NCBI GenBank assembly: GCA_947471365.1
Contig: CANIWQ010000010.1
Coordinates: 1 to 42,224, forward strand
Reading direction: 5' to 3'
From: Gemmatimonadota bacterium
Lineage (GTDB): Bacteria > Gemmatimonadota > Gemmatimonadetes > Gemmatimonadales > Gemmatimonadaceae
DNA: 42,224 nt
Under the pieces are notes generated by a model. That model was given only the letters and a program-made list of their open reading frames with translations, was not told the DNA's origin and searched no databases. The position numbers were made by a program, and so were the translations under genes. Positions 3,131-7,416 of this stretch are shown piece after piece (the first letter of the stretch is position 1; every line of letters begins with the position of its first letter).

Positions 3131-3220
3131 CGGTACCGCACGGTACCGCACGACACGACACGACACGACACGACACGACACGACACGACACGACACGGCA
3201 CGGCGCGGTGCGGTCCGGTG
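3131..3220. repeat. Pentanucleotide tandem repeat between divergent genes
   Basis: Two copies of CGGTACCGCA are followed by nine uninterrupted CGACA units (3151-3195) and then degenerate 5-mers (CGGCA, CGGCG, CGGTG, CGGTC, CGGTG). It fills most of the gap between the minus-strand DUF4337 gene and the plus-strand hydrolase gene, where the promoters of both are expected. A 5-bp unit can change length by slippage, altering promoter spacing. If the hydrolase were read from a start upstream of 3256, length changes would also shift its frame. Confidence 0.9.
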
Positions 3221-5014: not shown

Positions 5015-6598
5015 TCAGCCTTGGCTGGCAGGCAACGTCACTCGAAAGATGGTGCATCCAGGGGCGGACTCACTCAGTGTGAGTCGGCCCCCGTGCATTT
5101 CCGCAATGCGCCGCGCGATCGCGAGCCCCAGTCCCGCGCCGCTGGCGGTACTGGCCGCGCTGGACGCGCTGGCCGCGCTGGCCGCGCTGGCCGCGCTGGC
5201 CGCGCTGGCCGCGCTGGCCGCTATCGCGGCCAGCCCCTCGGTATGGTCGGCGCTCGGCGTGAGCTCCGCGGCCTCCGCACTGTCGTCGCGCGAACGTGCG
5301 GCGTCGACCCGGAAGAATCGTTCAAAGATGCGCGACTGCGCCTCGGCCGGAATGCCGATCCCGTCGTCGCGGACAGTGATCGCGTAGTCGGTGGTGATGT
5401 GCTCCAGCGCGACCGTTACCGTGCCGCCAGCCGATGAATATTTAATGGCATTGTCGAGCAAGTTGAGCAGGAGGCGGCCCAGCAGATCGGCGTCCCCTGT
5501 GAAGGGCGCGTCCGCCGTGGCGGTGAGTTCGAGCTGCACGCCGCGCCGTTCGGCCACGGCCCGCACGGCGCGTGTGGTGTCGAGCACCAGTTCATCGAGA
5601 TACAGCGGCGCCTGCTGCATGACAAGGTGGCCCGCGTCGGCGCGCGCGAGCAAGAAGAGGTCGTCGACAATGCGCGTGAGTCGGCGCGTAGCATTCCGCA
5701 TCACGCCCAGCGAGGCGCGGTACTCGTCTTCGGTGCGATGCTCGCGCGCCAGCGTGACATCGGCCTCGGTGCGCAGGATCGCCGTTGGGGTGCGCAACTC
5801 ATGCGAGGCGTCGGCCACGAAACGGCGTTGTTGCTCAAACGAATGTTCGAGCCGGTCGAGGAGATCGTTGATGACGCGCGCCAGGCCGACGAGTTCGTCG
5901 CCCCCACCCACGGGAAGTCGCTGGGCTAGGTTGGAGGCGCTGATCTCGGCCGCGTGCGCGGCCATCGACGCCACGGGGGCGAGACTCCGTTTGGCGAGGA
6001 TCGAGGCGCCGGCCGCCGCGCACGCCACAAGCACGGGAATGGCAATGAGAAAGGTGCGACGGATGCGCGCGAGCATGTCGTCAGCGTCGCGCAGGGAGTA
6101 AGCGCCGGCAATGCGATACGATTCTGCCCCGACGGTGAGCGGGCGCGCGAGCACGCGATAGTGGTCACGTTCACTGGGAAAGGTGAACGCGATCGGCGCG
6201 CTTAGATTGCGGCCGCGCAGTGCGGCCACGACTTCCCGACTCACTTCCGGCGACGGCGTGGCGGTCGGCTGGCGGTCGTTGTCCGCTAGCGCCGTCATCG
6301 CGATCACCGCGCCGGTGGCGTCGAGCACCACGATGTGCAAATCGCGAAAGCGTACTTCATCGACAGTCGCGCGAATGGCGGCCGGCGCACCGGACGTGGC
6401 CCGACGTTCGGCCGCTACCTCGCGCGACAGCGCGGAGAGCGCGTCGCGAATAAAGTGATCGGTGCGCGCCTGTAACGTGACGCCGAAGGTGAAGTATCCC
6501 GCAAGGGCAAAGCCCACAAGCGGCACGGCCAGCAGCAGGGAATACCAGAGCGTGAGACGGGCGCGCAGTGACGACGGCCACGGACGCACGCGCCTCAC
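5015..6598 (-). CDS. Two-component sensor histidine kinase with Ala/Ser repeat in the ATP lid
   Basis: 527 residues. Membrane segments at about 18-40 and 183-200 flank a periplasmic sensor domain. HAMP follows (about 202-255), then HisKA with His266 in ASHELRTP and a HATPase domain: N box LLLNLLDNAIKY near 380, G1 DDGIGIP near 412, F box FERFFRVD, and G2 GAGLGLAI near 487. Between the F box and G2, where about 10-15 residues are usual, there are about 50, mostly an AAS/SAA repeat encoded by a 9-bp tandem repeat. The ATG overlaps the stop of the upstream response regulator (ATGA), so the two form a cognate pair. The signal sensed is unknown. Confidence 0.93.
   Translation of the reverse strand: MRRVRPWPSSLRARLTLWYSLLLAVPLVGFALAGYFTFGVTLQARTDHFIRDALSALSREVAAERRATSGAPAAIRATVDEVRFRDLHIVVLDATGAVIAMTALADNDRQPTATPSPEVSREVVAALRGRNLSAPIAFTFPSERDHYRVLARPLTVGAESYRIAGAYSLRDADDMLARIRRTFLIAIPVLVACAAAGASILAKRSLAPVASMAAHAAEISASNLAQRLPVGGGDELVGLARVINDLLDRLEHSFEQQRRFVADASHELRTPTAILRTEADVTLAREHRTEDEYRASLGVMRNATRRLTRIVDDLFLLARADAGHLVMQQAPLYLDELVLDTTRAVRAVAERRGVQLELTATADAPFTGDADLLGRLLLNLLDNAIKYSSAGGTVTVALEHITTDYAITVRDDGIGIPAEAQSRIFERFFRVDAARSRDDSAEAAELTPSADHTEGLAAIAASAASAASAASAASAASASSAASTASGAGLGLAIARRIAEMHGGRLTLSESAPGCTIFRVTLPASQG
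5151..5222. repeat. 9-bp tandem repeat inside the kinase gene
   Basis: About seven to eight copies of CTGGCCGCG on the plus strand, the second copy differing at one base. On the coding strand the unit encodes Ala-Ala-Ser-type triplets within the ATP lid of the sensor kinase. Because the unit is a multiple of three, gain or loss of copies changes lid length without breaking the frame. Confidence 0.9.
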
Positions 6599-7416
6599 TC
6601 CGGCCGGCGCTTGCCGCGTGTCGCGCGCGCTGCGCGAGGCGCGCGAGGCGCGCGAGGCGCGCGAGGCGCACTCGGCTTCTGGGGCGCCGTGGCGACCGCG
6701 CTCTTGGTGCGGGCGGCTGAGGGGCTCTTGGCGGGCTTGCCCGGGATCGGTGCTTCGAGCAGAAAGCCGCTGCCGCGTACCGTGGAGAACAACGCCTCGG
6801 TCTCACCGTCGTCGAGCTTATGGCGGAGACGGCTGGCGTAGACGTCGAGGATGTTCGAGAAGGTGGCACGCGTGTCGCCCCAGACGTGCGCGAGCAGGTC
6901 GGCGCGGGAGACGACGCGCCCCGCGTTGCGCGCCATGTAGACGACGAACGCGAACTCGGTGGCCGTGAGCGGAATGTCGCGTACACCCCGCCGTGCCGTA
7001 TGGCGCAGGGTGTCGATCACGAGGTCGCCCACCACGAGCCGAGGCGGTGGGTCGTCGCCGCGCCGCCGCGTGAGGGCGCGGAGTCGCGCGAGGAGCTCGC
7101 CGAAGTCGAACGGTTTGGTGAGGTAGTCGTCGGCACCGGCATCGAGGCCCGCGATGCGCTGATCCACGCCGTCGAGCGCGGTGAGCATCAGAATGGGCAA
7201 CTGATTCCCGCGCTCCCGTAGCGTGCGACAGACGGCTATGCCGTCCTTGCCGGGGAGGAGGACGTCGAGAATGAGTGCGTCGTAGCTGCCGTCGGCGGCG
7301 AGGGCGAGCGCCTGCGTCCCGGTGGCCGCCTGATCTACCGTATAGGCCGCTTCGCGGAGCCCCCGGGTGATGGAGGCACGGAGCTGGCGGTCATCTTCCG
7401 CGAAGAGGAGTCGCAT
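6595..7416 (-). CDS. OmpR/PhoB-family response regulator with basic repeat tail
   Basis: 273 residues. The receiver domain (1-115) has the acidic pair EDD at 7-9, phospho-acceptor Asp51 in LILDVLLPG and the TKPF lysine near 102. A winged-helix DNA-binding domain spans about 125-225 (LTATEFAFVVYMARNAGRVVSRADLL, then SNILDVYASRLRHKL and TVRGSGFLL). After it comes a tail of about 45 residues rich in Lys, Ala, Pro and Arg, ending in four Ala-Pro-Arg units encoded by a perfect 9-bp repeat and then GKRRPE. Such a tail is not part of the usual fold and may add non-specific DNA affinity. The gene is coupled to the kinase by an ATGA overlap. Confidence 0.94.
   Translation of the reverse strand: MRLLFAEDDRQLRASITRGLREAAYTVDQAATGTQALALAADGSYDALILDVLLPGKDGIAVCRTLRERGNQLPILMLTALDGVDQRIAGLDAGADDYLTKPFDFGELLARLRALTRRRGDDPPPRLVVGDLVIDTLRHTARRGVRDIPLTATEFAFVVYMARNAGRVVSRADLLAHVWGDTRATFSNILDVYASRLRHKLDDGETEALFSTVRGSGFLLEAPIPGKPAKSPSAARTKSAVATAPQKPSAPRAPRAPRAPRAARATRGKRRPE
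6632..6667. repeat. 9-bp tandem repeat in the regulator tail
   Basis: Four perfect copies of GCGCGAGGC. On the coding strand it gives Ala-Pro-Arg repeats at the C-terminus of the response regulator. It is independent in sequence from the repeat in the partner kinase, but of the same unit length. Confidence 0.9.

Follow-up and report, generated by a model that had tools for sequence, protein, structure and literature searches.

Is a tandem repeat within the catalytic domain of a signalling protein a device for tuning that protein, or growth which the protein merely tolerates? The question is raised by a sensor histidine kinase gene in the window, the stretch of 42,224 nucleotides from a Gemmatimonadota bacterium analysed here. 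A 9-bp array lengthens the ATP lid of this kinase, and the first-pass annotation had proposed that changes in copy number may tune its activity as a contingency switch. The relevant features are listed below; G006 is the genome of the nearest species compared.

5015–6598, minus strand: sensor histidine kinase gene (527 aa, GTG start; HAMP, HisKA, HATPase_c)
6595–7416, minus strand: response regulator, the partner of the kinase (REC and Trans_reg_C), directly upstream of the kinase gene
5441–5464, minus strand: N box of the kinase (NLLDNAIK)
5315–5326, minus strand: F box of the kinase (FERF)
5222–5284, minus strand: non-repetitive part of the lid, residues 439–459, containing extra residues common to G006 and missing from the other orthologues
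5141–5221, minus strand: 9-bp tandem array, (AAS)6-ASS-AAS-TAS, 27 residues (kinase residues 460–486); 5140–5221 by TRF
5168–5221, minus strand: six perfect GCGGCCAGC units within the array
5123–5140, minus strand: G2 box of the kinase (GAGLGL), directly before which the array ends

The kinase and the repeat in its ATP lid

The regulator and kinase genes overlap, the stop codon of the first and the start codon of the second sharing the tetranucleotide GTGA. The kinase has Pfam matches above the cut-off to HisKA and HATPase_c, the latter found in pieces, and includes the phospho-acceptor His and the motifs which we take to be the N, G1, F and G2 boxes of HisKA/HATPase_c sensor histidine kinases. 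Residues H266, N379, N383, D411, G413, G415, F425, G487, G489 and G491 are invariant in a 13-row alignment. The best NCBIfam match is TIGR01386 (heavy-metal sensor kinase) with 256.7 bits, below the cut-off of 292.55 and hence outside this family by score; among the four orthologues scored, L022 passes (298.5), L021 and L025 fall below the cut-off and the G006 protein reaches 263.8. The kinase resembles the CusS/CzcS/SilS/CopS group described by TIGR01386 in domain order, in this best match and in having a TIGR01387-type partner, TIGR01387 being the best NCBIfam match of the regulator, but its best aligned part stops at residue 440, the site of the insert. Judged from sequence, it is a predicted CusS/CzcS-like sensor with a putative metal response.

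TRF reports the array with a period of 9, 9.1 copies and a score of 136 over 82 bp. The unit GCGGCCAGC encodes Ala-Ala-Ser, and six perfect and three degenerate units are read in the kinase's own frame between the F box and G2, in accordance with the first-pass annotation, which had placed an Ala/Ser tandem repeat in the lid of a sensor kinase at this position. The insert had been put at about 50 residues, mainly AAS units. Its repetitive nature stands while its length requires correction: the distance from F to G2 is 58 residues, 16 of which are normal for the orthologues, and 27 of the 42 extra residues belong to AAS, ASS or TAS units, the remainder being non-repetitive. Measured from the end of the N box to G2, the lid has 100 residues (79 in G006). 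The six perfect units are identical at each codon position, which points to growth at the DNA level. Open frames on the plus strand across the array would encode (LAA)n and (GRA)n; these were not accepted as genes, since it is the minus frame that has the HAMP, HisKA and HATPase_c matches.

A second 9-bp array in the operon (6632–6669, minus strand) encodes (APR)n in the C-terminal tail of the regulator and is 9 bp longer than in G006.

Lid length among orthologues

The lid is short in this kinase family, as had been stated beforehand: the F-to-G2 distance is 16 residues in 26 of the 30 orthologues, the others having 18 (L143), 20 (L150), 26 (L147) and 37 (L020, from G006), with no value for L032, which is a fragment. 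The lid of histidine kinases is described, in the parts of PMC10017428 that deal with it, as more variable than any other part of the domain and often disordered, with 39–61 residues from the N box to G2 in 14 published structures. Against this range stand the 100 residues of the window kinase and the 79 of G006, and the last growth step of the window lid is a DNA tandem repeat.

The kinase of the window and that of G006 share about 89–90% protein identity and are sisters with local support of 1.0 in a tree built without the lid, from which five of the 30 orthologues, not extracted, were left out. G006 has RDESAEAADLTLSTDGSDRLAAIAASTAS where the window kinase has RDDSAEAAELTPSADHTEGLAAI followed by (AAS)6-ASS-AAS-TAS; two imperfect units, AAS-TAS, thus occupy the site of the window's nine. 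The difference of seven units, or 63 bp, is in frame, and bears out the expectation that copy number alters lid length in frame, here between species. The original observation is correct, and the lid does change in length in frame from one species to the other. Two properties of a contingency locus are present, an array inside a gene and a unit number that differs between relatives, by seven units between two species.

The insert has two layers, about 21 non-repetitive residues common with G006 and 21 residues (seven 9-bp units) which are the window's own. Only G006 among the 30 orthologues has the older part and none has the nine-unit array; a search of 21 genomes with the exact 24-base repeat pattern matched one, the window's own. 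Six perfect units that had persisted since the two species separated should by now carry about four synonymous changes; none is seen (P of about 0.015, assuming half of the pairwise dS of 0.60 on each branch). The missing changes suggest that turnover of the array has probably taken place after that separation.

The same kinase gene carries another repeat change at a different place: the orthologue at L029 1303–2796 (G013) ends in repeated Val-Ala, a tail which corresponds to a short run of Ala in L028, the near-identical protein of G015.

Selection, predicted structure and arrays across the genome

Between the window and G006, dN is 0.058 and dS 0.60 over the whole kinase (dN/dS about 0.10), an average which is blind to selection on the insert alone. 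The ATPase domain without the insert gives a dN of 0.119 and a dS of 0.617; the lid-aligned codons give 0.154 and 0.80 but number only 29, too few to weigh. These substitution rates indicate that the kinase is under strong purifying selection.

The AlphaFold2 model of the kinase (62 sequences, mean pLDDT 87.9) has a core at pLDDT 91–98 in most blocks, with most of the insert at 43–55 and the repeat predicted as a weak helix. L054, an orthologue with a 16-residue lid that was modelled as a control, has the same predicted fold and its own lid dips to 63. Solved histidine kinases, HK853, YycG/WalK and CusS among them, match the model. Structure prediction, proposed at the outset as a check on the lid, thus returned a normal core, and only the insert, with its low confidence and weak helix, departs from it. 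With the control fold, this suggests that the kinase most likely combines an intact catalytic core with a flexible lid extension.

Elsewhere in the genome such arrays are numerous. In 804 kb of the window genome, 24 TRF arrays have a score of at least 100, compared with 0 in a first-order Markov copy, and they are therefore not due to chance; their density is 29.9 per Mb in this sample and 12.5 per Mb in that of G006. At a score of at least 60 the window genome has 54 arrays. Sixteen of these were paired with the G006 sample; lengths differ in 11 of them, seven by whole units. In the reverse direction, 7 of 69 G006 arrays were paired and four differ, three being longer in G006; both comparisons are biased towards longer copies in the genome from which the arrays were chosen, one genome at a time, and few arrays are paired because both genomes were sampled in part.

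Most of the arrays are located in intergenic DNA or in the tails and linkers of proteins. Twenty open frames over arrays were picked by eye, some of them alternative frames of one array, and the 16 that matched Pfam, together with the kinase and its regulator, make 18 array-bearing proteins. Once matches to repeat or coiled-coil models (Collagen, GLTT, FBF1) are disregarded, 15 of the 18 have the array outside the domain match. It is inside in the kinase and in a DUF4175 protein, there in a Gln/Gly-rich collagen-like part, and in a PLP-dependent decarboxylase it overlaps the C-terminal edge of the match. The kinase is alone in having a clean array deep within a conserved catalytic domain, and it is also the only one of the 31 window-genome proteins above the cut-off in which HATPase_c is split into two matches. 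The lid array is one among many changing in this genome, unusual mainly for its location in a catalytic domain.

Several other arrays were observed in passing. At 3149–3202 of the window, a CACGA 5-bp array of 10.8 copies lies just upstream of a gene which is presumably of the alpha/beta-hydrolase fold; the intergenic counterpart in G006 is shorter and without the CACGA array, and such a promoter-side repeat could affect expression. A DnaX-like protein (DNA polymerase III gamma/tau; L169 15645–15741) has two adjoining in-frame linker arrays, of APM and APS type, whose length differs from G006, and an MsrA-like gene (L203 17227–17325, G000:C13) has, close to its start, a 12-bp array with 8.2 copies that is 72 bp, or six units, longer than in G006.

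Probable tolerated growth and its alternatives

Our preferred reading, which we consider probable, is that the array grew by slippage in a lid tip tolerant of insertion, in a kinase that still works, and that this growth is nearly neutral, with a modest effect at most. A working CusS/CzcS-like sensor would have an ATP-lid tip that accepts changes in length. In its common ancestor with G006 the lid would have gained about 21 residues, as the tree and alignment suggest, and in the window lineage the 9-bp Ala-Ala-Ser unit beside G2 would then have multiplied by slippage or unequal exchange, adding seven units (63 bp) to the G006 state. The difference itself is observed; its direction is what we infer, and rests on one sister genome. 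The added residues would make up a loop, floppy or weakly helical, that lies away from the conserved core. Since the kinase is still selected for function, this growth would most likely be nearly neutral and alter ATP affinity or lid closure modestly at most. Array growth throughout the genome and an intact, conserved kinase favour tolerated growth over a contingency switch. Three points weigh on the other side: an Ala/Ser helix immediately adjacent to G2 could have consequences, repeats in the lid of MutL, a member of this superfamily, can change function, and the sole clean array deep in a catalytic domain among 18 proteins might be special.

The ATPase domains of histidine kinases and of MutL are related (GHKL), and the array, between the F box and G2 of a protein whose core model matches solved kinases, lies as in MutL in the ATP lid of a GHKL ATPase. 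In the sections of PMC2955026 on this repeat, MutL of Salmonella and E. coli is described as having three GCTGGC 6-bp units, encoding LALALA, in a region presented as a lid that covers the ATP pocket; a mutator arises, reversibly, when one unit is lost. Both are in-frame, GC-rich tandem repeats, and the MutL units, as described there, change by slippage with the frame kept. The MutL repeat has three units, changes within a strain and is tied to a mutator switch, whereas the array of the window has nine, lengthens the lid of a histidine kinase and differs between species. The E. coli tolA gene also has an in-frame intragenic repeat, whose copy number varies from strain to strain and which was examined for effects on stress tolerance (PMC3477136); it shares with the window array an in-frame repeat of variable copy number, although the window comparison is between species. 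Searches of the open-licence literature, with subscription papers outside the scope, returned no account of a histidine kinase whose ATP lid contains a tandem repeat.

With a possible loss of mismatch repair as the cause of the arrays in view, MutL was also sought in the window genome itself. The match, at G000:C62:17835–18218, covers profile positions 1–129 only and no other MutL piece was found in the genome; as contig C62, from its rank among the contigs by length, should measure about 18.0–18.4 kb, the gene is probably cut by the contig end.

Since a lid repeat switches function in a related ATPase, the idea of a switch is kept open, and contingency-type tuning of the kinase by the array is possible by analogy. 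It would require that unit number changes frequently within populations and sets lid length, and with it ATP affinity or the balance of kinase and phosphatase activities, giving graded, reversible variants of the pathway. In-frame unit differences between species, six identical units suggestive of recent turnover and the MutL precedent speak for such tuning. We nevertheless think it unlikely: the genome has many arrays, most of them in intergenic DNA or in protein tails and linkers, and array lengths change in both species; of the 30 orthologues, G006 alone shares the earlier portion of the insert, and the array is found in none; and the catalytic core is predicted to be unaffected. Moreover, changes of the array stay in frame and so provide no on/off state by frameshift, which argues against a dedicated switch. 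A more specific version, in which the array would act as an in-frame ruler, varying within populations, setting lid length stepwise and making kinase output graded and reversible as a histidine-kinase counterpart of the MutL repeat, appears to us quite unlikely.

About as unlikely as the ruler is an insert that would have gained a role of its own, as a docking surface or a stop limiting lid closure, and be held by selection. The older 21-residue part is retained in both species and the lid codons show a dN of 0.15 for a dS of 0.80 (on 29 codons, not firm), but the insert has low predicted order and a repeat composition and is without a relative beyond the window/G006 pair. A damaged kinase, in which the insert would block ATP binding and the gene be decaying or phosphatase-only, might be suspected from 42 residues inserted within the ATPase domain and from the uniquely split HATPase_c match; it is very improbable given a frame open throughout, conserved motifs, the low dN/dS, a normal predicted core and an intact partner regulator. 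Least probable of all is a wrong unit count in what is a draft assembly of 222 contigs, as array and flanks are in frame, 82 bp is short, some of the units differ from the others, and G006 has a counterpart of both the site and its flanks.

Under tolerated growth, the array is at present mainly an example of a catalytic domain tolerating a growing repeat. It nonetheless widens the precedent of the MutL lid repeat to histidine kinases, and its orthologues offer a natural length series of the ATP lid of one kinase, with 16, 37 and 58 residues, which makes the effect of lid length on ATP binding and autophosphorylation directly testable. If unit number does vary in populations and affects output, the array would represent a mechanism for the graded tuning of signalling.
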